DNA of 64,000 bases from Melieria omissa (Eukaryota > Arthropoda > Insecta > Diptera > Ulidiidae): contig OZ020268.1 of the NCBI GenBank assembly GCA_963971225.1, positions 38,199,348 through 38,263,347 on the forward strand, written 5' to 3'. Numbering within the stretch: position 1 is the first letter of the stretch; each line of letters starts with the position of its first letter. Both the position numbers and the translations under genes were made by a program. The notes under the pieces are model-generated. The model ran no database searches. It had not been told where the DNA came from and worked only from the letters and a program-made list of their open reading frames with translations. This document shows, piece after piece, positions 43,756-64,000 of the stretch.

Positions 43756-46700
43756 GTAAGTTTTGTGCATTGCGTAAAATATTATTGAAACATTGTCATA
43801 ACTGAAGTCATTCGATATGGAAATCAGTGGCCCAGTGCCTGCTGGGTAGTTGTTAGACAAAAAGGAAGACATTTGCCGAGTTACAATGAACCATTTGTCT
43901 ATGTCTCTTATGTCTTGGACAATCCTCATCTATAGGTATACATATAATTGTTTGTCTTCACTGATTGACTGATTGACAGACTGACTGACTGATTCATTAT
44001 AGCTCAGCCCAAACTGATGAAGCTATACACATGAAATTTTAATTGTACTTAAATCCACTTCGCAAAAGTGATTGATTCTGAAATTCGGTGTATAAAGGGC
44101 GAAACATGGGTTAACGTGTTATATGGAGAATCCTGATTTAATGGACCTATTGATTTCAAAGTTGGTGTAAGGGCTTCAATTCGATTCAATGATTCGACAC
44201 ATCGCTCCTTCGCTGCAAGAACGTCATAACTCAAACAATTTTTGTTTCAGTTTATGGCAGCCCTGTGTGTATCTGCATATGATCTTTTATCTGTCAAAAG
44301 CTCTTTGTAAAATATTCAATACTTTGCTCACAAGACGACATGAAACATTTTTTGATACCTTGAACTGCCTGGAATGGTAAATTTTAAAATTGAATTTTCT
44401 CGGAATGATGTAGTTTTGGGTTATGACGTTCTTGCAGGAGCGACATATTTTTCAGTTTTTTAAAAATTAAAATCTGACGGGTCAACAATGGGTTTAAGTT
44501 TATATACAGGATGATAAAAAAACCTGAACTGATAGGCCTTTAAAATTTTTGAAAGCCTTTAAAATGGAAAACAATTGGACACGTGGCTTTTCTTTTTTTG
44601 AAATTCAAAATCTAACGAGGTAAACCGAGGGTCAAAAATTTGTAAAGAGAAACACGATATATGGGCCTTTCTGACTTTAAACCGTGTGAAAAGACTTCAA
44701 ATTTAAAATAGGTCGATACGTGTTTTTCAGTTTTTTGAAAATAAAAATTTGACGGGTCAACAATGGGTTAAAGTTTGTAAACAAGATGATAAAAAAACCT
44801 GAAAAATAAATTGAAAAACAATTAGTGTGTCGGTTTTTTCTAATCAAAATCTAACGGGATCAACATTGGGTTACAACTTTGTATCGAAAACGATACACGT
44901 GTTCCAAACGAGAATCGCGTTCTTCACTTTTTTGAAAATCAAAATCTAGCAGGGTTCAAAGTTTGTATAGGAAAACATAATTTAATGGGCCTGTTGACTT
45001 CTTCTTCTTCTTGACTGGCACGACAGCCCGATTACGAGATTACGAGACTAAGGCCTAGCTACCCGCAATCAACCGTGTTGTGCGTGTGAATTTGTACGCG
45101 GTTGGAAGGGGCCTACAGTTTTATGCCGATTCCGAACGGCGAGTTAGGAGCTTTTTCATAGGCAATTTTACTCTCAGTTTGCCATTTCCTGCTGAGAGGA
45201 CAGCCGCCGAAAGAAGAATTGTTGTTTTTCTTTTTTTCGGTGTAAACGCAACGGAGTATTGAACTCGCGGCCCAACGCACTAGCCAGCTGAGCTACGGCG
45301 CCTGCCTGTTGACTTCAATTTAAAAAAAAGTACTTCAAATGAGAAATAAAAAACAAGTAGTCATAGTCATTCAAATAAAACGCTGTAAATGCAGTCTTAG
45401 TTAAATATTCGTGCCCAAAACCCATGACATTTACATATATAAAAAATGATTTCGGAGTAAAAAGTAAAACTCTGATTGCCTGATCCTTCACATTCAAAAG
45501 TTTTCTTCGAAAATCAATTCTTTGGCCAACAATTTCGACAACAGTCTTTTTGCCAAATGGAAATGGAATGGAAAATTGCATTCGACCACATAGCACATTT
45601 GAATTAATTACTAAACATTGAAAGCCGAATAGCTAAGCATTAACAAATTCCTCCAAAGCACTTCATATCCACACAAGTGGTAAATTTTCATGAGTTCCTT
45701 TATTCATTCGCATTCCACATAATTTTCTCAAACTGCCAAATTCTTTGGCCACTGGAATTTCATACGTAGAAATTAAGCATTCACCCCCCACACTGCGTTA
45801 CACAGCACATTTCGTGCACTCACCCGCATGAACCAAAGTCGTCTTCACACACCCTCAATGAAAGCTTTTCGTTTGGTCCGGCCATTGCAGAGGTCCGTTC
45901 CGAGGGAAGGGTCGTTTGCTACTACACCAACTGGAGTGTCTATCGACCGGGCACAGCGAAATTCAATCCGCAGAACATAAATCCATACCTGTGTACACAT
46001 CTGGTGTACGCTTTCGGTGGATTCACCAAGGACAATCAGATGAAGCCATTCGACAAGTATCAGGACATCGAGCAGGGTACGTAGCCAACCTCCACGCAAA
46101 TATCAAATTTAATGAATAGCTCAAACACAATTAACACTCTAACCACTCCCTCTCCCCGACCGTTCTGTTGACTCATTTATGTTCATATTTGCATGCACAC
46201 ATGTCCGCGTCCTTGCGGCTGTTCAGGTGGCTATGCCAAATTCACCGGCCTCAAAACGTACAACAAACAGCTGAAAACGATGATTGCCATCGGCGGCTGG
46301 AACGAGGCATCGTCGCGCTTCTCGCCGCTCATGGCCAACGCAGAGCGTCGGCAGCAGTTCATCAAAAACATTCTGAAATTTCTGCGGCAAAATCATTTCG
46401 ACGGCATCGACCTGGACTGGGAGTATCCGTCGCATCGGGAGGGTGGCAAGTCGCGCGACCGCGACAACTACGCCCAGTTCGTGCAGGAGCTGCGCGCCGA
46501 GTTCGAGCGGGAGTCGGGGAAGACCGGACGTCCGCGTCTGCTGCTGACAATGGCCGTGCCGGCGGGCATCGAATACATCGAGAAGGGCTACGACATACCG
46601 AAGCTGAACAAGTACCTGGACTGGTTCAATGTGTTGTCATATGATTTCCATTCATCGCACGAGCCTTCGGCCAATCATCATGCGCCATTGTATTCGCTGG

Positions 46701-49700
46701 AAGAGGAGTCCGAGTACAATTACGATACCGAGCTGAATATTGTGAGTGGAGCGAGCGACTATGTAAATGAAATGTTGAAATGCATGTGCGGAATTTAATT
46801 TGCAGGACTACGCGATTAAATTTTATCTGAAAGCGGGTGCCGATCGCGACAAGCTGGTGCTGGGCATACCCACGTATGGACGTTCGTACACGTTGATCAA
46901 CGAGGAGAGCACAGAAGTGGGTGCACCCTCAGAGGGTCCCGGCGAGCAGGGCGACGCCACACGTGAAAAGGGCTACCTGGCCTACTATGAGGTGCGTGCG
47001 ACTTTAATATCCAATAAATGTGGCGATGCTCAACACATCTGAATTTGGTTTTTAGATTTGCCAGAACATCAAAGACGACCCCGAGTGGACAGTGGTGCAG
47101 CCCAATCCGAATGCCATGGGTCCGTATGCCTACCGGCGCAATCAGTGGGTCGGCTACGATGACGAAGCTATCGTACGCAAAAAGGCACAGTATGTGGTGG
47201 AGCAGGGACTGGGCGGCATTATGTTCTGGGCCATAGACAACGATGACTTCCGCGGCTTGTGCACAGGCAAACCATATCCCCTGATTGAGGCGGCCAAGGA
47301 GGCCATGTTAGATGGCTTGGGGTATGTTGATGGCATTTGTAAAAAAGAAAATAATTTTTTGACTTTCTTGATATTCATCTTGTTAACAGACTTGGCATCA
47401 ATGAAGTAGCTAAACCCAATGCTCCTAAGAAACCATTACGCTCCAGAAGTCGCGAAAATTCGTCGTCAAAACTAAATCGCATTGGCGGCAGCACCGCTGA
47501 AAAGTCCTCGGGTGGACGCCTTTCAACAACCAGTGGACGTCGACGCGTGCAGGCCAGTTCGACTGCCGCACCCGAAACCACAATACGGCTCACAGCCGAG
47601 GGCTCTTCGTTGTACATTGGCGGACGTACCACTACACCAGCGCCACCTACCACACCCGATCCGGGCACTGGTAAGCGTAGTATATGAACTGTCTTGTTCT
47701 CTTATAATTATTATTTGACTTTTAAATAGATTTCAAATGCGAGGAAGAGGGCTTCTACCAGCATCCACGCGATTGCAAGAAATACTACTGGTGCCTGGAC
47801 AGCGGTCCATCAGGCCTGGGCATTGTGGCGCATCAGTTTACTTGTCCGTCGGGACTCTATTTCAATCCGGCCGCAGATTCGTGTGATTTTGCACGCAATG
47901 TGCCCTGCAAAACAAAGAAGTAAGTTTGGAGATTGGAAATATATCAAGAATGCTGAATAAAACAAAACTTATTTATGAATTTTTATTAGATCCTCAACTG
48001 CAGCGCCTGCAACCTCAACCACAACAACCACCACCACACCGCGCCCTACAGCCGCCGTAAATCGCGTTACCGCCGCCACTTCACGCACGTCGTTCTTCCG
48101 AACCACCACTACGACGACACCTGCTCCCATTGAAGAGTACGAAGATGAGGAAGAGGAGGAAGTGCCAACGCACTTTAAGGACAAAGAATCCGAAGAGGAT
48201 CCACAGGTGATCAAGGAACTCATTGAGTTGATACGCAAAGTGGGTGGCATCGAGGAGCTGGAAAATCTTCTGCAGCGCAAAGACGACGGCACCATTGCCA
48301 TCAAGCAATCTTCCAGCGGCACCGATGTGGCTACCACGCCTTCGCCGATAAGCAAATCGCTCTATGAAAAAGTGTTAAGCAAACCAAAAGCCTTCAATTC
48401 ATTCCGCAATCGGTTGACGTCGTCGACGTTGTACCGCAACTCTGGTCAGACCAAGTCTGACGAGGTCGTGAGTGAGGTTGCCAAATCTGTGGAGGCTAAA
48501 GAGCAGGAAAGCGAGCGTGGAAGCAGTGGCTACTCGAAATACTCATCCGTGGTGCGCGGTGGCAACAGCAGACAAGGTCCACAAAACGAAGGCTTGGACA
48601 AGCTGTCCGACTTTGACGGTTTCCTCAAGGAACGCAAACAGTATGTGACCATAAATAGAAATCGGGGTGCGAGCAGAGGTCAGGAGGATGGCTCCGAGTT
48701 GGAAGAGAACGAAGAGGACGAAGAGGTGGAAGAAACCGTAAAATCCACTAAACGTCCGCTGACTACCGTGACACCATCCTATGCCAGCGTACGCAGAACC
48801 AGGCCCACAAAACTCAAATCTGAAGCCGAAGAGGAAGAGGAAGAAGTGAAGGTTGTGAAGGATGTCGAGGAAAAGCGCACCTACACGTCGCTAAATAGAA
48901 ATCGCGGACGCCATACCACCACGGAGAGTACCCAAGATGCTGACGACGCTGAGTCAACCACAAATCGGTAATATATGAAATTTCTATAAAACTAATGAAG
49001 CATTACAAATCGCTTTTATATTTTGAAGGTACAAAAACTTGGAACGAACGCGACCCACACGGCGCCCATTCTCATCTAGCGCGGCAACGGAGCAAACCGT
49101 GGCAGCGACCGACGACGACGACAGCAACGAGGAGAGTGATGACGAGGAAGAGCAAAATGTAACGGTACACTTAAACGCGGCCGCAAAAGATTCCACACAA
49201 AAGTCAACACAAAGTACACAACGCATCTACGCGAGCATAGGTCGCAGAACTACAACAACAACAGAGACTCCAACTTCCACCACCACAGCCACCACAGAGA
49301 CTCCAACAATTAAAACCAATCTTATAGAGAACACACTTTTAACTAACGAAACACCTGAACCAATCCTAACAACAACCGATGCTTCAGCCGTCTCAACCAC
49401 AACCGTTACTAATCCCGCTCTTATTTCCACTACCACTGCATCCGCTTCCACATCCTCATCCATTCCTATCATAACCACTACCACTGCTGCTTCCGAAACA
49501 TCCGAATCCACCACCACCGTCGTTCCCAACGAGTTGTCTACCCTTGAGCAAAGCTCAAAGGAATCATTAGCTCTCTCCCTTGACATCAATTCCCTCGTAC
49601 AAGAGTCCACAGCTCAAACCAACGCGGAATCGAAACAATCGACCGAAGCGCAGGCCGATGAAGCGGCCCGTAGTCAATCGACAACGACCGAAACTCTGAC

Positions 49701-52700
49701 CACAACCGGTACCACTAACACTGACGACCGCTCCGTGGACGAGGTAACGAATTTGAACAAGAAATTAAGCAAGACACAATACAAATACACCACACGAACA
49801 AGAAATACCACAGTCACCGGTACCACAAGCGAAACAACGCAAACTAGTCTAAACAATAGTAGCAGTAGCGATGGTTTAAGTAGCAATAACGTTAGAGGTA
49901 GTACCGTTAAGTACTCTGGTGGTAGGAGACAACAACAACAACAGTTGAACGAGTTGCTTAATCGTAAAACCCAAATCCAAAACCAACAGACAGCATCAAG
50001 CACCCCAGCCACCATAACCACCACAACCGAAACAGCTCCCACTAACGAGTTCCTGGGCAGTGTGTCCAGTCCCAGGCCGTTTGGTTTTCCGAGACGTCGT
50101 ACGCGTCCCACTAGCGCCAATCCGACGACTGATACAGGCAATACTAACATTGAAAATAGTAATGAAGAGGAAGCGAGCTTAGTGAAAACGAAGCAAACCG
50201 CCGTCAATACGAGTGTGAATTTGTCTAAGAATAAGGTGAGTTCTAGCGCTGAGGTACAAGATGGATTGGAAACCAATGCAAAGGGCAGCACTGTGAGCAC
50301 CCAAATTGAAAATCAATCGCAAACGCAAACTCACACCCAAAAATCGCATGTAGTCGACGTAGAGGTAGATGGTGTCAGTAGTACAAGTAGTGGTAGTCTA
50401 AGGCATGTTGTAGATAGAACCAATAGTTTAAGTAGCGAAACCGAGACCGGCAACGCCGACGCGAAGATTTTGTGGAGTGATAAACGCACCGAGCAGAAAC
50501 CAAGCAGAGGTAATTCCGTAACCGAACGGGGTAAGGACAGTGTTAAGGTAGGTAGATATCGAGGTAAGAGTTTTACGAGTCCGTACGAAGAAAATATCGC
50601 CGACGAAGAATATCCTGGCCCGGGCAAATATCGCGGTCGCGGCTTGAAAATGGTCAGTGACGAGAACGGCGACGATGCGGCAAAAACGACAACACAGCAA
50701 GCAAGGAAACTGATAAAGAAGGAAAATGCCGCTGCGGAATCAAATGTTTCCGATCTTACAAAAACTGGTTACACCAAGATTAGCAGAAGTAATGCGGACA
50801 ACTCGAAAACGACTTATACCACCATTACAAGAAATAATGCAGAAAATGGCGACGCGGAAAATGGCGTAGAACGCAAAGAAACCACTTATACGACCACTAC
50901 CACAAATAACGATGGCGATGTGGTCGTTTCCGAAGTGAAAACAAACACCAACGAAACGGTGACTTCGGACGATGGTAATGGCGTTGTTACGAAGCAAACG
51001 ACCTACACCACGATAACAAGGAGTGGCAGCAATCGCGAAGGTGCTGAAAACAATAATGCAAACGACGACGAATTAGCTGAAGAAAAAATTCGTTTGACTG
51101 CTAAAGAGAGTAATGGAGAAAACGCCGTCAAGTATACAAATATTGTTCGAAATCACCAGAATGTGCTTGAAGGTGTAAAGAAAGACGAGTCCAGTGAGGT
51201 GGCGAATGCGGGCGCCGTAAACGCCACTACAGAGGAGCTGATCGACAACAACACTGTGCGTAAGACTTCAAAATATCACACAACCTCCAGAAACAACGAT
51301 GGAGTGCAGCAAGTTACCACCGTCGAGGAGACAATTACCACGACACATACAGAGGGCGGCGCAGACGAGAGCGGAGTGCGTGGCACCAAAACGTATCAGA
51401 CGATTAACCGCACTGCAAGCCATGGGCCGTCCTCCGAAACACTACATTATAAAACAATAGCACGCGGCAGCGACGGCGTGCACTTGGATGACGGCGAATC
51501 GTCTTCATTCTTCAAACATTTAGGAAACGCCGCAAAACAAGCGGAACAAAGCCGTCAACGTGTTTATCAGACCATCTCAAGGGGTGGTAAAGTTCCAGAC
51601 GCTGTGGAGAATGCAATTGCTGAAAGCGCTGAAAAAGTTGAAAACAAGGCATCGGTTGTTGGTGCAGAATTCAATGCAGAGAATACGGCGCACACTTATA
51701 GGACTATACAGAGAAACAGTGCAAAGGTGGAAAGTGATGAGACCGCATCATCGTCAAGTGGGCAACACCAATCAGCAGCGAGCATGTTTAACGGCATGAA
51801 CTCGGAAAATTTGGTCAAGACCGAAGTAGGCTCAGCCTCACTGAGCAGCACAGCGGAAAATACAGCATCAAATAATATTGAAAACATCAATGAGACTTTG
51901 GCGATTTCTCAGGAACAGACCGCAGAAATCGAAGATGTCAGCACTTTGCCAACTTCGACCGAAGCCATCAGCACAACGAATGACGTATCTTTGGAAGACG
52001 AAAATATCGCCGCTGAAATTTCAGACGATGTAACCACAAAAATTGAATCAAGCACAGACAGTATTGTTACGGCTGAGCCTGTAACAACTTCAACTGAAAT
52101 AACAACTGTCACTGAACCAACTGAGACCACAACCAAAAAAACAATTCAGAGAAGTCGCGGTACAACTACAACAACAGCGCCCACAACTGACGTAAATAGT
52201 GCTGAGACCACAACCAGAAAAACCAGTCAGAGAAGTCGTGGCACAACTACAACAAGAGCGCCCACAACTGACGTAAACAGTGCTGAGACCACAACCAGAA
52301 AAACCAGTCAGAGAAGTCGTGGCACAACTACAACAAGAGTACCCACAACTGACGTGGACAGTGATGCAATTACAACAGGAACAACAGACGAAATCTACAA
52401 ATTTTCCACCAGAAAGTTAAACAAAAGTGATAAGTCAAAAACAACAAATAGTGAAACAACCACATTGAACACCTCTGTCTCTTCAGAGGAGTCAGGTACT
52501 GGCAATAGTTCGACTGGCACAAAATTCAAGTTTGGCCGCCGACCCACCACAACTCCAGCCAGCGTCATCTCAGAAACTGTAACCACTACAATTGAATCGA
52601 CTACGGATGAGCCTGTAACAACTGTCACTCAACCTGCTGAGACCACAACCAAAAAAACTATTCTGCGAAGCCGTGGCACTACAACAACAGCGCCCGTAAG

Positions 52701-55700
52701 TGACGTGGACAGTGCTGCAATTACAACAGGAACAACGGACGAAATTCACAATTTCGCCACCAAAAAGTTGTACAAGATCAATAAGTCAACAACAACAAAC
52801 ACTGAAACAACCAAATTAAATACCTCCGACTCTTCAGAAGAGTCAGGTACCAGCAATAGTTCGACTGGTACACCCACCACAACTCCAGCCAGTTTCGATT
52901 CAGAAACTGTAACTACTACAATTAAATCGAGCACTGATGAGCCGATCGTTACAGATGAACCTGTAACAACTTCAATTGAAATAACAACTGTCACCGAACC
53001 TGCTGAGATCACAACCGAAAAAACCATTCAGAGAAGTCGTGGCACAACTACAACAACAGCGCCCACAACTGAGGTGGACAGTGCTGCAGTTACAACAGGA
53101 ACAGCGGACGAAATCCACAAACTCGCCACCAAAAAGTTGTATACGATCAATAAGTCAACAACAACGAACACTGAAGCAACAACATTAAATACCTCCGACT
53201 CTTCAGAAGAGCCCGGTACTGGCAATAGTTCGACTGGTACAACCACCACAACTCCAGCCAGTTCCGATTCAAAAACTGTAACTACTACAATTAAATCGAG
53301 GGCTGATGAGCTGATCGTTACAGATGAACCTGTAACAACTTCAATTGAAATAACAACTGTCACCGAACCTGCTGAGATCACAACCGAAAAAACCATTGAG
53401 AGAAGTCGTGGCACAACTACAACAACAGCGCCGACAACTGACGTCGACGGTGCAGCAATTACAACAGGAACAACGGACGATATTAAAAAATTCGTCACCA
53501 GAAAGTTGTATAAAACTAATAAGTCAAAAACAACAAATAGTGAAACAGCCACATTGAACACCTCTGACTCTTCAGAGAAGTCAGGTACTGGCGTTAGTTC
53601 AAATGGCACGAAATTCAAGTTCGGCCGCCGACCCACCACAACTTCAGCCAGTTCCGATTCAGAAAATACAAATAGTGTAGAAGAAACAACTAAATTTAGA
53701 AGTCGCATCCGAACCACTGCTGCCACCGATGCGATCATCGATACCACTGAATCCATACCCAGTTCAACGATAAAACCCGAACCCGTACGAAATTTGATTT
53801 ACAAAAGTCGAATCAAGTCCACTACGGCTGCTGCACCTACTGAGGCCGAATCCTCAATAGCGGTCGCGGATGTGTCGTCGGAGAAATCGGCAACAAGACG
53901 TAAATTTGCCATAAGAAAGTCCTCCAACAGAGCAACCAATTCAGGTCTTCAAGACGAAGTGCAAATTAATGCTGTGACGCAACACGAACACGAAGAAGAA
54001 TATGTGGACACTAGTGAAGAAGCTTTGCAAAGTGGCGACCATTCAACTGCGTCCCCACGACGCCGCGTCATCTATCGTGGCACCTATCGGCCACGCAGTG
54101 ACAAAGACGATCTGTCTTCATTGCTGGCTATTGACCTCAGCAAACAACAACACTATAAGGGTGAAAGTCAATACGGTGTAGGGGTGAAGCGCAGACCCGG
54201 GGATCGAGCCGTAGTGGAGAGTAGCATTGATGAAAATGCACTTAAATCAAGAAGACCAACACGCCCAGTGCGTCTGCAAACCGATACCGGAAATGCTGGA
54301 GAAAATAAAGACAAATTATTGGAAGGTTTTGCGGTAGCTGAAGTGGACGCTGCCGCCGTCGAGATTAATGCAAAGAGTGGTTTGAGAACGAAATTCAAAA
54401 CTACAACTGAAAGTGACAGCACGAGCATAAGAAAGAGAATTTATGGCAGCAGGAGTTCAGTTGATAATACGAAGGAAAATAAATCTGAGGCCAGGACAAA
54501 TGGCACTGAAAGTGTTGACGTTATTGGCGGAGGTTTAGAGTTAAAGACTCTGAGCGGAAGTGGCGAACTCAGCAAAAATACCGAAAGCGATGTTTCTATT
54601 TCCGAAAAATATCAAAAAAATAAGAAAAATGTGAGTAACTCAATAGAAACGAACTCAACACTGGACGCGAGTGCGATATCAGACACAAGTGACAGTGCTA
54701 CAAATAGCAACACCTCGAAAGAAATATTAACTGCTGACAATGTTGGCTCCAGCGAATCCCAGACAAGTGGTGAACACAATACTACAACAACAATAACATC
54801 CTTTGAACATTCAAATAAGCATTTAAAAGCAAACACAACTTCCATCGATAGTTCCAAGGCACATGCTGACTCGACGGACTCGAGCAGCTTGGGTGGAAAT
54901 TCCGCTACCACTGAAACTGAAACCACAAGTCAGCAGCATCAATCAACAGTTTTATCTCAAAAAACAGGCGAAGACAGTGGAGTAGCTAATCAAGAAGAAA
55001 GTGATAGAAGCACTGGCACAGATAGCGAGAACTTAACTTCCGCCAAAGGCTTCCGACGTTTCAATCAATTTTCAAAAACCAAAACTACAATCACAACAAC
55101 TTCGGAAGAGGATGTTAGTAATTCGACCGCAGAAAATAATGACAAGGTTTCGTCAAATTCTTCTAAAGGCTCAATTAAGACTTCCAAATTCAACTTCAAT
55201 AGAAATCGTGATAGCAAAACCTCTTCGGCAGACGAAAAAGCAAACAATGAAGCCGGAAAAGTTGAAACTAATAGTACCACAACCCCAGACGCTGAACAGC
55301 AAACCAGTGGTAACCGATCTTCCAGTCGGAAGAACCTTAGCCGTTCTAGATACAATTCTCGCTCGCAGCACAACACTCAATCCCAGCCTCGAGGTCGATT
55401 TGTGGATGGCAATACCACTGAAACAGAAACCAGTGAAAATGGTGTAACTAAAACCCGCACCACGCATACACGTACGTTCAATACTGACGCCAATACACAG
55501 AAAACAGTCAAACGTGTGCACACAAAGACAATACAGAAGACGGATCCCGAGTACGAGTACGTCTATGAGGTAATAACAGAGAAAGTGCCAAGCACCACGA
55601 TGCGTCCCATTACAAGGAATCGAGGTTCGGTGAGATTCCAAAGTACAGATTTATCATCTCTACTTTCGTTGGATTACGCACCGAAGAGACAGCGCAAGTA

Positions 55701-58700
55701 CGAAGGCGAGAAGACTGTAGTGAAGACTAGAAGGCGTATAATTAAGAAACCGGAAGTCATCTCCGAATCGGAAGATATCGAGGAATACGAATATGAGACC
55801 GAGCAGCCGAAGGCGACTCGACCGCCACGTCCTACTACCAGCAGCACGCCAAGCACTGCAGCTGTGCACACTGTGCGACGTACTAGGCCTACAAGACCAT
55901 TGCGTACAACTACGCAGAGGGCTACCACCACCACTGAAGCAGCTGAAAGTGACGAAAAAGTAGAAACCACTAGAAAAGCGGAAGTTCTAACCACAAGAAA
56001 GAGTTTTGCATTCAAGCGACCAATTACCTCAACCACCACCACAGCTACCACAACCACTGAAGCAGCTGAAAGTGAAGAGGCAGTAGAGACCACCACTATT
56101 GCGAATCTCTTAAGTTCGCGAAGAGGATTTGCATTCAGACGACCAAGTACCACAACAGTCGCTCCTACCGAAAGCACAACTACCACAACAGAGCCAACGA
56201 CAACCGGCGCAACTGAAAGACATGTAATAAGGCGTACCAAGATTATCAAAGTTAAAAAACCCACAAATTCTCTTGAAGACACTAAAACCGAAGAAGAAAG
56301 TGTGACAGATGTAAAGAGAACTTTTGCAACACGCTTACAGCAAAATTCGTCCTCCAAAAAATCAGAGTCCTCGGCCAATTTCACAAATGTTGAAGCAGAG
56401 ACCGAAAAGTCCGTAACAACGACGGAAGTTCCCACAACAACAATAACAACAGCAGCAGTTGACGATCCGTTGCATATTTTGAAAACGCAGTTTGCTACCG
56501 CTGTTAATAAACTGAAATCATCGAATAATACTCTCACCACTAATGTAACAACTATAACAACGACAACTACTACTAATGAAAATGGCGCCGTGACACACTC
56601 TCAAACTAGCACTGAACTAAAGAATGTAGTTACTGAAGCAGAAGATGCCACGGATACCGCCTCCGAACCTGCAGATGATTTGAAGAATGAACTGAATGGA
56701 AGCGGAGAGGATTCGCTCTCTTTACCGATCTATCATCGACGTAAGTACTATCAGTACTACAAAGATTCGCCTGTAATTCATGTTGGCAAAGCAGGATCAC
56801 TGTCTTCAACGCAAACCACCAATGTCGACATAAAGAAGCAAATACACGAAGTCTTCAATGTCAGCAATGACAACGATCAAACCCCGACTAGTTCGGAAGA
56901 AACCGATGCACATTTAGCCATAGAACAAGCCATGGAAATTAACAATGAATTGAGTCATTTTTTATTGAAAACCCCCGGGTCAAAGTAGATGGGCACCTGG
57001 GGGCAAAATCAATCGGATCAAAATTTACCGTATCAGGAGAGGAAATAATTGATGACAATGATGCTAAGACTGAATTGGAAAACATTTTAGGCACTGTGCG
57101 CAATCGCACCCAAATCATCAAAACACGAGTCAATCGCATAAACTCCACAACTGAAACAACTCAAACTGAGAGCAACGTCGATGTGGATGACAAGAATGCC
57201 GGTACTGAAATCATAGCCGAAACAGACGACGAGGAAGCATCGACTGATACTAGTGACACGAAATCACATCGCGTTGGAAAAACTTTCAGAGAACCAACTG
57301 AAGTTGACAACACAACATTAGCATACACAAAACTTTCGATCTTAAAAACCGAATTAGATTCTGCCCAAACCAATGCCACTACTGAAGCAACTATTGCCAA
57401 AACGCCAATCATCAAACTGACCATACTTCCACAGGACCATGAGCAACCCAACGATAAAAATCGCGCCGATGACACAAGAGCACTGCGCAAATTCACAAGA
57501 CCTAATCGCACACGTACTACAACAGAACGCGGCGCGGATACCACAACAGAGACCACAACTGTTTCTGCTGCTGCTGATGAAGCCGATGCGACAACGAAGC
57601 GTACTTACGGAGCGTTAAACCGCTTGCGTACGAGACCCATTACAAGTGGTAAGGCCACTGAAACCACTACGGAGAAAGAAGACGTGACCGATGCAGCTGA
57701 AATTACTGCAAGACCCGTTTTCAGTGCTCTCAGAAGTCGCGGCACAGCCAACAGACCCTTACAATCTACAACGAATGAAACTAGCGAAGAAACTATCACC
57801 AATACAACCACCACAACAACGCTACGCCGACCATTTGTGGGCTTGAGAAGAACAACAACAAAAGAGCCTGACGTATCGGATGAGGAAGTAGTATCTACTA
57901 CTCCAAATGCCTCAACACGACGAACTTTTGGTGGTTTTAGTCGACCTGGAGTAAAACAAACAACTGCCAAACCAGTTGCGGAAGACATAGAGGATATATC
58001 AGAAGAGGAAGTAAAAGACCAAGTGTCAAGTACTCTAAACACGACTGCCCCAACAATACGCCGAACTTTTGCTGGTTTTAATCGACCAGGACTACGAACC
58101 ACAACCGCCAAGGTGCAAACAAATGCAGAAAAGGAAGAAACATCAGACGAAGAAACAGAAAATTCCAGTACAACAAAAGAAACAACGCGTCGTCCCATAG
58201 GTGGTATTAATAGGTTATCTTTTCGGACGACAACTGCGAAAGGCATTGAAGAGGAAATATCAACTAAGTTAGACGACGAAGCGATCCTCAGCACAACGGG
58301 CGCCGCAGTTAAGCGACCCTATTCTGGCATCAATAGGTTAAATATAAGAACAACAACCGCAAAGCCACAAGAAACTGAAGAGGATATATCGGCTGACTTG
58401 GACGATGATGAAACCCTTAGTACTACTGAAGCTACCACAAAACGTCCCTACTCTGGTCTCAGTAGAATAAATTTAAGAACAACCACTGCAAAACCACAAG
58501 GCACTGAAGAGGATACATCACCGGAACTGGATAATGATGTAGCTGATAGCACTACTGGTGTTTCAGTTAAACGGCCCTATTCTGGCATCAACAGGTTAAA
58601 TCTAAGAACAACCACAAAACCACAAGAAACTGAGGAAGATATATCGGCTAACTTGGATGAAGATGAAACACCTAGTACTACTGGAACTATCATTAAACGT

Positions 58701-61700
58701 CCCTATTCAGGTCTAAATAGGTTAAACTTAAGAACGACTACTGCAAAGCCAAACGAATCAGAAGAGGATATATCGGCTGAACTGGATAATGCTGTAGTTC
58801 GTAGCACTACTGGCGCTACAGTTAAGCGGCCCTATTCTAGCATCAACAGGTTTAATTTAAAAACAACGACCACAAAGCCACAAGAAACTGAAGAAGAGGA
58901 GGAAATATCGGATGACTTGGATAAAGATGTAGTTCATAGCACTACTGGCACCTCAGTTAAACGGCCCTATTCTAGCATTAACAGGTTAAATTTAAGAACA
59001 ACGACCACAAAGCCACAGGAGACCGAAGAGGACATATCAGCTGACTTAGACGATGATGAAACCCCTAGAACTACTGGAGCTGCCATTAAACGTCCCTACT
59101 CTGGTTTAAGTCGATTAAATTTAAGAACAACGACTACAAAACCACAGCACACTAAAGAGGATACATCACCTGAGCTAGACAATGATGTAGCTCAAAGCAC
59201 TTCTGGCGCTACAGTTAAACGGCCCTATTCTAGCATCAACAGATTAAATTTAAGAACAACAACCGCAAAGCCACAGGAAACAGAAGAAGAGGAGGAAATA
59301 TCGGTTGACTTGGATAATGATGCAATTCATAGCACTACTGGCGCCTCAGTTAAACGTCCCTATTCCAGTCTTAATAAGTTAAATTTAAGAACAACAACTG
59401 TCGAGTCTCAAACCGATTTAGGCAAGACATCAAGTGAAACAGATACACTAAGTGCCATAAATAGCTCCACGCGGCGTCCGTACACAGATATCATCAGGAC
59501 TTCAACGCAGAATGTAGTTGATGAAGATGACGAAGAAGGAAATGAAAACACCACCGTAGAACCAGAGCTTTCAAATGATGATCAAAACAGTACAACCACT
59601 ATAACAGAGACAAAAACACTATCGTATAATATTTTAAATCGTTCGAGTACAACAGAAAACGTGGAGGGAAACGAAAGCGGTGCATTGCATTCAAATGTAA
59701 TAAACAGTGACGAAATATCAACTGACGAAGAGCTCAGTGCTGACATCGATGATTCAGAAAATGACGTAGATCAAAGTGAAGAAATATCAACAACTATGGA
59801 AACAGTCACAGAAAGTGTGCCGACTAATAGCCCTCGACGAACGGTGATCATAAGAAAGCGTATTCGCGTCACAACCACCGCCAGTACAACGATTGATGGT
59901 TCCGCGGAAGATGAGGATGAAGCCGATGAAAATACTACAACCCCGGAGACGCTGACTGAAAGCATAGTTGATGATACCACACGCCGCACTGTACTCGTGC
60001 GCAAACGCATACGCATTACAAATGCAACGTTGGTTTCAGACAACGAAGCCGTTTCGGGAGAAGAAAAAACTTCCGTCGAGTCCACTGCAACCAGCAAAGG
60101 CACACGGGGTCCGTTGATTTTGAGAAGGCGTCTCAACACCACTAGCACCACAGAAAATACCACTGACACGGAATCTGGAGAACTTTCAACCGATACGCAA
60201 TCCCCAGCACGACGTACGTTCACCAACTTGAATAGACCACGTGTGCGAACAACGGCAGCGCCCGAAGATAAAACTGACAACACGACTGAAGCGACTGCAG
60301 TATCTGATAGACGCGGTTTATTACAAACCAATCGACATCGTGCCTTACTGAACCCGACTACGGAGGCTTCCGTCGAAGAGCCTAGTGATGATGTAACAAA
60401 AGCAGTAAACCAAACAGAAACAGAGTCAACTACACGTCGCTCGTTTTTGAAGACCGCAATTCGCTTGCGTAGCACAACTGTTGCACCTGACGATGAAACA
60501 GATGACGTCAAAGAAACAACGCCGCCATCTGGCGGATCCACCACTCGTCGCAAATTTTTGAGCCCAGCGAGACGTTTCGGCAGTACAACTGTGGCCAGTG
60601 ATAGGGAAGATGACGATGTTAAAGAGACAACACCGTCAAACATTCCCGAATCAGATTCTAGTACGCGTCGCGCATTTGTCAGACCCGCTAGTCGATTCCG
60701 TAGTACAACCATTGGCAGTATTGATGCAGACACAAGTGAAACAACGGAAAAGCCACAAGAAGACTCTGTCAGGGATTCGTCGACCCGTCGCACATTTGTG
60801 AGGCCCACGAATCGGTTCCGCAGCTCTACTATTTCCACAGTAGATGACGACGAAAGCGCACATGAGGAAGAAGCAGAAGAGCCTCGAGTAGACACCTCGA
60901 CGAGACGTACCCTCGGCGCCTTTAGTCAGCGCCAGCGGCCAACTCCTGCAACTCGACTCCAAACAACCAGCAGAAGACCTCTGCCCACATTCAACAGAGA
61001 TTTATACAAAAGAGTAGAAGACGAAGATAATGAAAATGATGATGAATATAGCGAGGAAGAGGAGGATGTAGCAGAACAAAAACCAACAATACCGAAGCGA
61101 CCTCAGTTTACTACAACCGAACGTCCTCGTCCGCAATTTACCACACGCAGGTCATTCGGCATTAACCGTTTTCAGGCAAATCGAAATCAAAATGATGACA
61201 AAATTTCTACAAATATTGACGAAGATGAAAACGACGAAAACGAAAATGTATCGAACGAAAACGAAGCCACCGGTCGACCCGTAAACAGTCTGCTTGCTAA
61301 TCGCGATCGTCCGCTAAAGCCCGCCACAAATGGACGCCAAAACAGCTTACAGAAGTTACGCGATCGCGTCAAATTAGCACAGACACAAAGCACTGACGAT
61401 GGTGTCGTCAGCACCAGACTGACGGCAATTCTAGCCAATAGGCCTAAGACGACAGGAGATAGTAGGGCCAAGACTACCTCAGATAACAACGACGACGACG
61501 ACAGTAATGAGCGGGACGGTGATGAAGACATTGCATCTAATACGCACGGCACGAGCACGAATACTAATCAAAGCAAAACCCCTGTAATTAGTTTGATTGC
61601 AAATCGTAGTGGTACTAACCGTAGCAGCACCGTAGCCAATTATTTCAATAGAACTAAATTTAATTTAAGTCTTAACGCTAACAACACCCGAGTTCATAGT

Positions 61701-64000
61701 AAAGTAGATGCTGAAGCAGCGCGAGGCAATGATAATGAAGCTCTCGATAGTGATAACGATGATAATGTTGATGATAGCGAAGATGAAAATGCTGATGACG
61801 ATGTTAGCACTAATGATAAGGGTAATGAAGTTAATTCTACACGACGTTTTCAGAAATATCAATTCAACCGCGCAAGACCAACAACAACAGCAAGAACAAC
61901 TACCACCACAGTTACACCAAATGCAAACACACAATCAGGAAGAAATAGACCCATAACAAATCAGGTAAATCATTTAGTAGATGATGATGATGATGAAGAA
62001 GAAGAGGATTATGATGATGAAGATGAAGATGAAGATGATGACGAAGCAGGCCGCACTACAACCACTACCACTGAAAGCACTTTGGGCTCTAGTCCACCAG
62101 CGCCAACACCAAGACGCGTACGAGTCTTGACATATCGTCGACCCGTTGGCGGTGCAACCAGCACCTTAGTTGATAATAGAAATAGTAGTAGTTCTGCCAG
62201 CAATGCTAGTGTTACTAATACAACCAACACCGACAATGCTACCAATAGTGTAGATTCCCTTAGTGTAGACAAATCCGAATCGGGTTCCACAAATCAAACT
62301 CAAACAGCGGACGCAACACCACCCAAACGCTTCCGTAAAGTTATCCGCAAGCTCATTAGGCCGGTCAATAGAACGCTGGAGAGCACCACCGTCAGCGACG
62401 GTGATGGTGTTGGGGTGGGAACACAGGCAAATGCCACTGTCAGCACGGTGAGAACGCCAATCTTTAGTGCTGCAAATCGCACGCGCTTTGCAAATCGCCC
62501 TATTTCAAGCACGACGGCGTCGCCTGAAGACTCAGATGAAGATGAGGATGAGGAAGAAGGTGATACCGCATCGGAAGTCCCCTCGCAAAAGCCAGCACCT
62601 GGCAACAGTGAGGCGGGCTTATTGGCATCACGTCGGCCATTTGTATTTTCTAGGGTCAGCACAACCACGCCGGCCAGCGACGATGCGGAGGACGACGAAC
62701 TGGTAGCCGAAAACGATGACGAGGATGACGAAGCTAAGCCACAGTCACAAGGCATAGTTGGTACATCGCGGCTAAAGAAACTTCTCTTAGACCGAAATAC
62801 GACCAGCGCAATAGCAAACAATACCGAAGAACAATCAGATGGTGAGCGAAACGCCACGCAAACGTCATTTAGACGTCCATTTGTGCCCGGTGGAAGACCC
62901 AGATTCGGTCAAACCCAAACTGAAACTGAAACCGAAACTAAAATAGAAACTGAAACTGGTATCGAACAGACGAATAGTGAATCTACAACTAGGGCACCGC
63001 TGCCAAGCCTCGGTTTCCGTCGCAAGCTTGTTGCCAAACGTCCCTATGTACCACCTAGAGTATCAGCGGCCAACGTCACAACCACGGTGCGTCCACCACC
63101 TGAAAAACCAAAAAGAAAATTTGTGAGGCGCAAGTTTGGACGATTCCATCCATTTAATGCCGTTAACCGCAACACGGGCGAAGGTTTCTTACGCACGGAT
63201 CCCAGAAACTCTTTACTGCCTGGCACTAATCGCTTCAAGGTGGAAGGTCGTCAATCTGGCGAGGAAGGCGATGAAGAATACGAAGAATATGAGGACGAAG
63301 AAGATGAAGAAGACGAAGAGGAAGAGAACACAGAACCTGCCAAACCGCCAATTGCAGGCCTGCCAGTAAAACCAATAGCCAGGCCTCCAGGCTTGTTTGC
63401 TAGAACGCAATCGCCCATATTAAATAAGCCAGAACCCAAGGAAGAGGCAACAGATGATGAGGACAACGATGAAGACGATGATGAGGACGACGACGAGGAA
63501 GACGAAGATGACAATACCGAACAGAAACCCGCTGCACCCGATTCCAATACCCCATCTTTCCGTCCGAAGGACAATCGTGCACCGCCAGGTGCGAGACCCG
63601 CTTTACCCACATCTACTCAATCCACCGGCAATATTCCCTTTAATTCACGCAACCGTCAGCCACCTGCCTCAAATCGTTTCGGTGCCGGTAACAACCCCGG
63701 CGTCACCCACACCCGTTTGGGCCAATCTGGTTTCGGAGCAGCACGGCAGACAAATCGTCCACGCGTCGTCAACCGTCCGCCTGGCGTAGCGCCACCGAAT
63801 CTCCCACTGAAGCCCATTGCCACCGACTTCGAGCGCACCACACCGGTCATACCCACCAAACCAGCGCCGTTCATATCAACCAACACGCGCACTTACGAAC
63901 GCAAGTACAGTGCCACATCTACCGAAACACCGGAAACAAACATCGATAACTCACTCATTGAAGACTTGAATATCGAGGCACTCAATGCACGCAATAAGAA
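43695..64000 (+). CDS. Cht6: Group VI chitinase, partial at both ends
   Basis: This is an extracellular GH18 chitinase with a CBM14 domain and a giant mucin-like tail, an architecture specific to insect group VI chitinases (Drosophila Cht6). Nine exons are visible. The GH18 part has the KTMIAIGGW motif, the catalytic FDGIDLDWEYP motif (general-acid Glu codon at 46421-46423), the SYDFH motif and the GGIMFWAIDNDDF motif, so it should be active on chitin in cuticle or other chitinous matrices. The CBM14 domain has all six cysteines. The tail is rich in Thr, Ser, Asp/Glu and Arg and carries internal repeats. About 5,880 residues are visible, which is longer than I recall for the Drosophila protein. 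The start codon lies in an unseen upstream exon, and the end is beyond the window. A -1 frame change at about 56958-56988 interrupts the tail. Confidence 0.93.
43960..45430. repeat. Dispersed ~160-bp tandem family, locus 3 (Cht6 intron)
   Basis: This lies inside the first visible Cht6 intron (43756-45890). It has the same leader (gactgattcattatagctca and on) and the same tandem units as at 35190-35815, with about five units: 'aatctgacgggtcaacaatgggtt', 'aagtttgtaaacaagatgat' and 'ttgacttcaa..ttggtg' (parts). A SINE at 45002-45304 splits one unit. Confidence 0.8.
45002..45304 (-). mobile_element. Full-length tRNA-derived SINE, type B, with target duplication
   Basis: It lies in the Cht6 intron. 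A 12-bp target duplication, cctgttgacttc, flanks it at 44990-45001 and 45305-45316. On the minus strand the head is caggcgccgtagctcagctg, with A and B boxes (gagttcaatactcc). The body includes, on the plus strand, cagttttatgccgattccga, shared with the type A SINEs. The 3' tail is an aag repeat (ttcttcttcttg on the plus strand). Confidence 0.9.
45891..46076 (+). CDS. Cht6: Cht6 exon: start of GH18 domain
   Basis: It begins after gccattgcag and ends at donor gtacgt. It encodes the first beta strands of the GH18 barrel (GRVVCYYTNWSVYRPGTAKF and on) and the THLVYAFGGF strand. These are hallmark N-terminal GH18 segments. Phase 1 at both ends. Confidence 0.92.
46227..46741 (+). CDS. Cht6: Cht6 exon: GH18 catalytic core
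   Basis: It begins after gttcag and ends at donor gtgagt in phase 0. It encodes 171 full codons, including the KTMIAIGGW motif, the catalytic FDGIDLDWEYP (46397-46429), and the WFNVLSYDFHSSHE substrate-binding region. All catalytic acidic residues are present. GC content is clearly higher than in the flanking introns. Confidence 0.95.
46806..46991 (+). CDS. Cht6: Cht6 exon: GH18 barrel with insertion domain
   Basis: 62 codons in phase 0 between a 64-bp intron and a donor, gtgcgt. It encodes DYAIKFYLKAGADRDKLVLG, IPTYGRSYTL and the GEQGDATREKGYLAYYE segment. These correspond to the barrel strand and the small alpha+beta insertion common to insect chitinases. Confidence 0.93.
47056..47321 (+). 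CDS. Cht6: Cht6 exon: end of GH18 domain
   Basis: It begins after tttttag and ends within a Gly codon at donor gtatgt. It encodes ICQNIKDDPEWTVVQPNP, the NQWVGYDDEAIVRKKAQYV segment and GGIMFWAIDNDDFRG, the last conserved GH18 motif, whose Trp lines the active-site floor. Confidence 0.93.
47390..47670 (+). CDS. Cht6: Cht6 exon: linker between GH18 and CBM14
   Basis: 93 full codons of low-complexity linker rich in Ser, Thr, Arg and Pro, after a ttaacag acceptor and before a gtaagc donor. It has no folded domain. A linker of this kind usually carries O-glycans and separates the catalytic and chitin-binding modules. Confidence 0.9.
47730..47919 (+). CDS. Cht6: Cht6 exon: CBM14 chitin-binding domain
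   Basis: 62 full codons encode one peritrophin-A type (CBM14) domain. Its six cysteines are in the order and spacing of the family: FKCEEEGFY, RDC, YYWC, FTC, DSCD and VPC. Aromatic residues at the usual sugar-binding places are present (KKYYW, GLYFNP). It should anchor the enzyme on chitin. Confidence 0.94.
47990..48967 (+). CDS. Cht6: Cht6 exon: start of mucin-like tail
   Basis: 325 full codons. It opens with a Thr-rich stretch, then an acidic stretch (EYEDEEEEEVPTHFKDKESE). A predicted helical segment follows (QVIKELIELIRKVGGIEELE), then the first copies of an aromatic-x-x-aliphatic-x-Arg motif (QYVTINRNRG, TYTSLNRNRG). The exon ends in phase 2 at donor gtaata and joins 49029 across a 61-bp intron. 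Confidence 0.9.
49029..56988 (+). CDS. Cht6: Cht6 giant exon, zero-frame part
   Basis: After the acceptor ttttgaag, the frame is open for about 2,650 codons to TAG at 56986-56988. The sequence is Thr/Ser-rich and mucin-like, with (a) many copies of Y-x-[ST]-[IL]-x-R, such as TYTTITRNN, TYQTINR, HYKTIARG and VYQTISRG, mainly from 50760 to 51720; (b) Thr-rich tandem repeats at 52150-53700; (c) two DLSSLL modules near 54105 and 55645; and (d) arginine-rich RPTRP-type segments. It has no transmembrane segment. The stop lies only 22 nt after a canonical -1 slippery heptamer, and coding clearly continues in the -1 frame, so this stop is unlikely to be the end of the only product. Without frameshifting, it would give a shorter tail ending in LLKTPGSK. 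Confidence 0.88.
52150..53700 (+). repeat. Thr-rich coding repeats in Cht6 (27- and ~120-residue units)
   Basis: Three 81-bp units (starts 52150, 52231 and 52312), each containing RSRGTTTT, are followed by units of 354, 366 and 369 bp (next starts 52666, 53032 and 53401). A long unit reads RSRGTTTT, TGTTDEI, KLYKINKS, SSEESGTGNSSTGT, TTTPAS, TEITTVTEPAE in order. All lengths are multiples of three, so the frame is kept. These are likely dense O-glycosylation blocks. Confidence 0.88.
56958..57003 (+). promoter_or_regulatory. Candidate programmed -1 ribosomal frameshift signal
   Basis: The heptamer T TTT TTA (56958-56964) is in the right register (zero-frame codons TTT and TTA). A 7-nt spacer follows. 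Then CCCCCGGGT (56972-56980) can pair with ACCTGGGGG (56995-57003) as nine consecutive pairs with one G-U, around a 14-nt loop that contains the zero-frame TAG. Heptamer type, spacer length and a stable stem all fit the known rules for -1 frameshifting. A single missing T in the assembly at the same run would give the same frame picture, so the call needs read-level support. Confidence 0.55.
56964..64000 (+). CDS. Cht6: Cht6 giant exon, -1 frame part (open to window end)
   Basis: From the slippery site the -1 frame is open without a stop to the last base, about 2,345 codons. Style and content match the upstream part: Thr-rich blocks, acidic runs (for example 61979-62042, 63260-63330 and 63448-63510), and the recurrent [FY]-x-x-[ILF]-[NS]-R motif (TFAGFNRPG, PYSGINRL, FTNLNRPR, SFGINRF). 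Nine tandem units of about 43 residues occupy 58314-59483. Upstream, this frame is closed by TGA at 56946-56948, so it cannot start earlier. It has no methionine-led start with a signal sequence, so it is a continuation of Cht6 and not a separate gene. The end lies beyond the window. Confidence 0.88.
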   Translation, partial: MENPRVKVDGHLGAKSIGSKFTVSGEEIIDDNDAKTELENILGTVRNRTQIIKTRVNRINSTTETTQTESNVDVDDKNAGTEIIAETDDEEASTDTSDTKSHRVGKTFREPTEVDNTTLAYTKLSILKTELDSAQTNATTEATIAKTPIIKLTILPQDHEQPNDKNRADDTRALRKFTRPNRTRTTTERGADTTTETTTVSAAADEADATTKRTYGALNRLRTRPITSGKATETTTEKEDVTDAAEITARPVFSALRSRGTANRPLQSTTNETSEETITNTTTTTTLRRPFVGLRRTTTKEPDVSDEEVVSTTPNASTRRTFGGFSRPGVKQTTAKPVAEDIEDISEEEVKDQVSSTLNTTAPTIRRTFAGFNRPGLRTTTAKVQTNAEKEETSDEETENSSTTKETTRRPIGGINRLSFRTTTAKGIEEEISTKLDDEAILSTTGAAVKRPYSGINRLNIRTTTAKPQETEEDISADLDDDETLSTTEATTKRPYSGLSRINLRTTTAKPQGTEEDTSPELDNDVADSTTGVSVKRPYSGINRLNLRTTTKPQETEEDISANLDEDETPSTTGTIIKRPYSGLNRLNLRTTTAKPNESEEDISAELDNAVVRSTTGATVKRPYSSINRFNLKTTTTKPQETEEEEEISDDLDKDVVHSTTGTSVKRPYSSINRLNLRTTTTKPQETEEDISADLDDDETPRTTGAAIKRPYSGLSRLNLRTTTTKPQHTKEDTSPELDNDVAQSTSGATVKRPYSSINRLNLRTTTAKPQETEEEEEISVDLDNDAIHSTTGASVKRPYSSLNKLNLRTTTVESQTDLGKTSSETDTLSAINSSTRRPYTDIIRTSTQNVVDEDDEEGNENTTVEPELSNDDQNSTTTITETKTLSYNILNRSSTTENVEGNESGALHSNVINSDEISTDEELSADIDDSENDVDQSEEISTTMETVTESVPTNSPRRTVIIRKRIRVTTTASTTIDGSAEDEDEADENTTTPETLTESIVDDTTRRTVLVRKRIRITNATLVSDNEAVSGEEKTSVESTATSKGTRGPLILRRRLNTTSTTENTTDTESGELSTDTQSPARRTFTNLNRPRVRTTAAPEDKTDNTTEATAVSDRRGLLQTNRHRALLNPTTEASVEEPSDDVTKAVNQTETESTTRRSFLKTAIRLRSTTVAPDDETDDVKETTPPSGGSTTRRKFLSPARRFGSTTVASDREDDDVKETTPSNIPESDSSTRRAFVRPASRFRSTTIGSIDADTSETTEKPQEDSVRDSSTRRTFVRPTNRFRSSTISTVDDDESAHEEEAEEPRVDTSTRRTLGAFSQRQRPTPATRLQTTSRRPLPTFNRDLYKRVEDEDNENDDEYSEEEEDVAEQKPTIPKRPQFTTTERPRPQFTTRRSFGINRFQANRNQNDDKISTNIDEDENDENENVSNENEATGRPVNSLLANRDRPLKPATNGRQNSLQKLRDRVKLAQTQSTDDGVVSTRLTAILANRPKTTGDSRAKTTSDNNDDDDSNERDGDEDIASNTHGTSTNTNQSKTPVISLIANRSGTNRSSTVANYFNRTKFNLSLNANNTRVHSKVDAEAARGNDNEALDSDNDDNVDDSEDENADDDVSTNDKGNEVNSTRRFQKYQFNRARPTTTARTTTTTVTPNANTQSGRNRPITNQVNHLVDDDDDEEEEDYDDEDEDEDDDEAGRTTTTTTESTLGSSPPAPTPRRVRVLTYRRPVGGATSTLVDNRNSSSSASNASVTNTTNTDNATNSVDSLSVDKSESGSTNQTQTADATPPKRFRKVIRKLIRPVNRTLESTTVSDGDGVGVGTQANATVSTVRTPIFSAANRTRFANRPISSTTASPEDSDEDEDEEEGDTASEVPSQKPAPGNSEAGLLASRRPFVFSRVSTTTPASDDAEDDELVAENDDEDDEAKPQSQGIVGTSRLKKLLLDRNTTSAIANNTEEQSDGERNATQTSFRRPFVPGGRPRFGQTQTETETETKIETETGIEQTNSESTTRAPLPSLGFRRKLVAKRPYVPPRVSAANVTTTVRPPPEKPKRKFVRRKFGRFHPFNAVNRNTGEGFLRTDPRNSLLPGTNRFKVEGRQSGEEGDEEYEEYEDEEDEEDEEEENTEPAKPPIAGLPVKPIARPPGLFARTQSPILNKPEPKEEATDDEDNDEDDDEDDDEEDEDDNTEQKPAAPDSNTPSFRPKDNRAPPGARPALPTSTQSTGNIPFNSRNRQPPASNRFGAGNNPGVTHTRLGQSGFGAARQTNRPRVVNRPPGVAPPNLPLKPIATDFERTTPVIPTKPAPFISTNTRTYERKYSATSTETPETNIDNSLIEDLNIEALNARNK
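58314..59483 (+). repeat. Nine tandem 42-45 residue coding units in Cht6
   Basis: Unit starts are at 58314, 58443, 58572, 58698, 58827, 58962, 59091, 59220 and 59355 (spacing 129, 129, 126, 135, 129, 129, 129 and 135 bp). Each unit opens with RPYSGINRLNLRTTT or a close variant, then AKPQETEED, an acidic stretch and a Thr/Ser stretch. More diverged relatives precede the array from about 57900. The units are much more alike than the rest of the tail. Confidence 0.92.

Follow-up and report, generated by a model that had tools for sequence, protein, structure and literature searches.

Among cellular animal genes, frameshifting has a low prior probability. In HIV-1 gag-pol, −1 frameshifting uses the slippery heptamer U UUU UUA. 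In the accessible text of a FlyBase review, the only frameshift genes given are Oda and, added in proof, Apc (PMC4528330). Drosophila Apc resembles the locus described here in being a conserved insect cellular gene with a −1 shift; its −1 part, however, spans 125 residues and its zero frame gives the longer protein (PMC5009743), whereas the −1 part of the present Cht6 gene spans about 2,970. Oda, which encodes antizyme, is likewise a fly gene with conserved recoding, but its shift is +1 and polyamine-sensed (PMC4528330). Short and long products from overlapping frames also arise at multiphasic exons with variably spliced introns (PMC4528330); these require a spliced intron, for which the Cht6 locus offers a candidate.

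Group VI chitinases are defined by a GH18 domain, one chitin-binding domain and a long Ser/Thr-rich C-terminal region (PMC9933517). Knockdown of Cht6 harms tracheal tubes, moulting and wings (PMC7414880, PMC4738247). Predicted Cht6 proteins have 4,498 residues in D. melanogaster, 2,369 in T. castaneum and 3,405 in A. gambiae (PMC3097210); the D. melanogaster length suggests that its model spans both of the parts described below, and some join may already have been modelled. The Cht6 isoforms of Diaphorina citri provide another parallel, a group VI chitinase with two tail lengths, although there it is the Ser/Thr-rich region separating two chitin-binding domains that varies among isoforms, and the accessible text mentions no frameshift (PMC9933517).

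The window analysed here is a stretch of 64,000 nucleotides of Melieria omissa, from a genome assembly of 490 Mb in 164 contigs. Judged by its sequence, the gene in the window is a Cht6-type group VI chitinase, laid out as follows:

46040..47322, + strand: exons of the GH18 catalytic domain, with introns (Pfam PF00704 and tblastn)
47729..47920, + strand: chitin-binding exon (aligned to the chitin-binding part of the D. subpalustris protein P0014)
48968..49028, + strand: short AT-rich intron 5′ of the giant exon (boundaries set by splice score)
49027..56988, + strand: ORF1, the zero-frame part of the giant Thr/Ser-rich exon, with stop codon TAG at 56986-56988
56714..56985, + strand: conserved terminal block of ORF1, LPIYHRRKYYQY..HFLLKTPGSK (from the alignment of relatives; start approximate)
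56949..64000, + strand: ORF2, the −1 frame, open on to 65885, beyond the window end

All elements of the group VI definition were found: a GH18 domain by Pfam (PF00704 at 46172-46795, E 1e-53), a chitin-binding exon by alignment to P0014, and an ORF1 in which Thr and Ser are the commonest residues. By tblastn, P0014 matched the GH18 exons at 73-87% identity, and its chitin-binding part matched the exon at 47729..47920 at 98% identity across 64 residues; the underlying PF01607 assignment was precomputed for P0014. The tail is interrupted by the 61-nt intron at 48968-49028, whose donor, GTAATA, is weak (score 4.1) and which contains the branch motif CTAAT; the sequences flanking this intron are both aligned by the D. 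subpalustris model.

The zero frame is open to TAG 56986, as the sequence-only reading had it, with the ORF starting at 49027 rather than 49029. An open-reading-frame scan likewise bore out its account of the −1 frame, which has a stop just upstream, TGA 56946-56948, and then stays open from 56949 as far as 65885 (about 8.9 kb). An extension of more than 2,300 residues had been proposed; the long −1 ORF is there, and its actual length, running past the window, is about 2,970 residues. ORF1 and ORF2 overlap by 37 nt (56949-56985), and if the RNA is unspliced here the frame switch must therefore sit within that interval. Codon statistics place the move of the favoured frame from zero to −1 somewhere within about 56940-57036, and clearly favour the −1 frame from 57036 onward. 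Between 57036 and 57290 the −1 frame coding score averages 0.9, which is exon-like. The 16 codons of the −1 frame at 56988-57035 score −0.14 (2.2% of coding windows are this low), and the conserved zero-frame block upstream of 56988 also scores low (0.30; 1.9%). Stop-codon readthrough was rejected as an explanation of the long product: past the TAG, the zero frame closes after 19 codons.

Within the overlap and just beyond it lie the elements of a putative frameshift signal:

56958..56964, + strand: slippery heptamer T TTT TTA, in zero register (CAT TTT TTA), from the sequence
56965..56971, + strand: spacer of 7 nt, from the sequence
56972..57003, + strand: stem-loop of the predicted fold, in which 56972-56980 pairs with 56995-57003

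The heptamer is the only in-register X XXY YYZ within 56944-56990, and it, the 7-nt spacer and the 9-bp stem stand as first described. The predicted stem includes one G-U pair and encloses a 14-nt loop that contains the zero-frame stop; it forms the core of a 56-nt fold of −17.6 kcal/mol. It starts 7 nt past the heptamer, inside the 5-9 nt range for the stimulatory structure of a −1 frameshift. The codon GGG accounts for 2.7% of the 261 Gly codons counted in the gene, a count that includes one in the stem; within 56977-57002 there are three GGG codons, one of them in the zero frame and two in the −1 frame. Like known −1 frameshifting at X XXY YYZ, the locus combines an in-register heptamer, a 7-nt spacer, a stable stem, an early zero-frame stop and a long −1 ORF. 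Unlike HIV-1, Cht6 is a host gene, its slippage is putative, and a pseudoknot stem does no better than in shuffles. The gene is a group VI chitinase whose mechanism would work like known −1 frameshifting, and it is a candidate member of the frameshift class.

We compared the signal with the rest of the gene and with redrawn versions of the site. The portions of ORF1 and ORF2 inside the window contain 11 strict in-register heptamers, only one of them TTTTTTA. The 45 nt past it fold at −17.4 kcal/mol, as against −8.4 for the next best of the 11. A strict heptamer occurred in 2.5% of 4,766 codon-aligned windows, each of 42 nt, taken from this gene, and a heptamer with an equally stable fold in none; the fold stability at the site was reached by 0.25% of sampled gene positions. 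When synonymous codons were redrawn from the gene's usage with the peptides held fixed, under two nulls that differed in their treatment of the post-stop bases, a heptamer together with an equally stable fold arose in 1 of 20,000 draws under each null. Taken separately, the heptamer arose in about 8% of draws and the fold in 0.115% or 0.035%, depending on the null. Local dinucleotide shuffles fold nearly as well as the native sequence (z −1.45 for the 56-nt fold, with 14 of 200 reaching the native value; z −1.01 for a 161-nt fold, with 31 of 200), so the oddity is the presence of a GC-rich self-complementary stretch exactly here, not pairing beyond what composition gives. The putative frameshift signal follows the canonical layout and, by the standards of this gene, is far from what chance would give. 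A pattern search of the genome was too loose to be informative: counting both strands it gave 7,681 matches, and its reversed control gave more.

The prior favours a splicing explanation, since genes are alternatively spliced far more often than they are frameshifted; the improbability of the signal outweighs that prior in part only. The main rival is an intron that would join ORF1 directly to ORF2 when removed; when it is retained, the block would be translated and the TAG would mark the C-terminus of the short form:

56741..57036, + strand: candidate alternative intron of the rival reading, 296 nt, frame-compatible (splice scores)

This intron pairs the best donor (7.8) with the best acceptor (6.2) of the stretch, its length is 2 mod 3, its donor scores within the range of the gene's own introns, and the −1 frame coding score, poor over 56988-57035, climbs at its end, 57036. 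In FlyBase, moreover, multiphasic regions are present in 269 gene models, in most cases through variably spliced introns (PMC4528330). Against it, the acceptor scores below those of the three resolved introns (8.6-9.6), though above the 5.0 alternative at 47055; the length of 296 nt compares with 61-73 nt in the gene's resolved introns; and there is no CTRAY branch motif, which is present in one of those three. The splice-site weights behind these scores were not trained on this genome, and three introns of the gene are not cleanly resolved by them. Removal of the intron would excise a strongly conserved block, both annotated models of relatives read through the donor at 56741, and in the relative P0007 the donor codon is altered from Lys to Asn. 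Splicing here would also leave the slippery site and the stem to chance. We regard this intron as unlikely, if a serious rival. The programmed frameshift proposed by the sequence-only reading is partly supported, by its canonical signal, its shared frame break and its conserved −1 ORF; it is qualified by an in-frame intron with plausible sites and by the 4,498-residue D. melanogaster protein, which may already join the two parts.

The interruption of the frame recurs in related sequences. A search with the ORF1 end returned nine relatives, of which seven are unannotated and two are annotated Drosophila models (D. tropicalis and D. subpalustris). All seven unannotated sequences end ORF1 at the same place, in HFLL[K/S]TPGS[K/V], where the window has HFLLKTPGSK; the two annotated models change course there, leaving the frame after TPGS and TPG respectively and continuing with other sequence. 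The relatives are protein sequences only, and we infer the stop codon past their ORF1 end. Their counts refer to sequences rather than to lineages: P0009 is nearly a copy of P0010, P0007 and P0013 group by eye, as do P0011 and P0012, and P0004-P0007 and P0009-P0013 all carry the source tag 'lgn'. All 10 sequences compared, with the window counted among them, share HFLL, TPG and the distance between the two. The terminal block has many further residues that are just as invariant, and HFL permits the heptamer without requiring it. No DNA of the relatives covering the site was found in a scan of genome contigs and viral contigs, and a search with a 188-residue protein returned no relative among 71 candidates.

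The shared end point in the relatives indicates that the frame break is old. The T6 run and the C5 and G5 runs at the site could suggest that one base was misassembled, or that the sequenced fly carries a frameshifted allele, but seven relatives finish ORF1 at the same residue; a break common to relatives is not a private error of assembly, and we consider this explanation very improbable. The same end point bears on a different splicing scheme, in which a conserved intron has its donor adjoining the stop (as xx|GTRAG, which unspliced translates as one codon and a stop), or in which the layout differs in some other way, for example through a separate start for ORF2. All 7 unannotated relatives share the codon of the end point, the K and V before it are both compatible with a phase-2 donor, and both annotated models exit the frame exactly here, although both look incomplete. 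For a donor at 56985, the only in-phase acceptors up to 57320 are 57172, 57253 and 57289, which lie within 305 nt and all in exon-like codon statistics, and the nearest in-phase AG is at least 188 nt away. We think such layouts improbable, more so than the intron at 56741-57036.

ORF2 has relatives of its own. Among 7,973 candidates scored because they shared the most words with it, two proteins were found, of 3,128 and 3,049 residues. The first 480 residues of ORF2 match P0004 and P0005 with E 2e-14 and 33% identity, and one stretch of 1,135 columns in the comparison with P0004 reaches 51%. The 3,128-residue relative aligns in a single piece to 57249-65807 in window coordinates, at 37% identity. 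On these comparisons ORF2 is conserved coding sequence and must be reached somehow. The first Met of the relatives lies 26-27 residues ahead of the motif RVGKTFRE, which is about 107 codons into the ORF2 of the window; their ORF2 proteins start at that Met, and the junction is consequently not visible in them.

We consider it fairly probable that the giant Cht6 exon is decoded by programmed −1 frameshifting to give group VI chitinases of two lengths, one short and the other very long. This reading draws on the two ORFs, the heptamer, the spacer, the predicted stem, the ORF1 end shared by the relatives and the conserved ORF2 protein; it supposes that the mRNA is unspliced here, that the relatives have a stop codon at the same point, and that slippage occurs at some efficiency. 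The proposed order of events is as follows: the majority of ribosomes would terminate at TAG 56986 after reading ..SHFLLKTPGSK. Some would pause at the 9-bp stem with CAU UUU UUA in the ribosome, and these could slip one base back on U UUU UUA. Slipped ribosomes would then continue ..HFL-IENPRVKVDGHLGAK.. for about 2,970 further residues. Two products would in this way come from one mRNA: a chitinase whose Thr/Ser-rich tail, about 3,000 residues long, ends in the conserved block, and a form about twice as long. The degrees of confidence given here for frameshifting and its rivals are judgements, not computed posteriors.

On a broader claim our confidence is evenly balanced. Under it, −1 frameshifting at an HIV-type heptamer would be a conserved property of Cht6 in higher flies, the rate of slipping would set the ratio of the short chitinase to the one about twice as long, recoding alone would account for about half of a protein that is among the largest extracellular ones of the fly, and current gene models would mask this with invented introns. 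If frameshifting is the true explanation, Cht6 would be a conserved third such gene beside Oda and Apc, the two listed for D. melanogaster (PMC4528330), and false introns may join the parts of current Cht6 models. Normal animal genes rarely use a virus-like frameshift signal, and Cht6 would be one that does; it would also be a directly testable instance of translational control of a giant extracellular protein.

No description of Cht6 frameshifting was found in the accessible part of the literature searched. The first 300,000 characters of PMC5009743 contain neither 'chitin' nor 'Cht6', and Cht6 is not named in the accessible portions of PMC5100048, PMC6886504 and PMC2291194. Dunn et al. (2013) report several transcripts with footprints more consistent with a frameshift, which the accessible text leaves unnamed (PMC3840789).

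Some minor observations accompany the locus. The segments GTAGAT and ATTTAC (56985-56990 with 57023-57028) could pair as a pseudoknot over the stem; we do not claim one, as 392 of 2,000 shuffles reach six pairs. A search of Rfam gave a single match, on the opposite strand, to a bacterial sRNA, with a score far below cut-off. The −1 ORF contains in-register A AAT TTA heptamers at 58469, 58988, 59117, 59246 and 59381, the last four of them 129-135 nt apart within the repeat ..NRLNLRTTTAKPQETEEDIS.., and the folds past these heptamers are unstable (−0.1 to −6.7 kcal/mol). On the minus strand, long antisense open frames at 59771-60925 (384 codons) and 55674-56600 (308 codons) lie over the Thr-rich tail and are probably a by-product of its composition.
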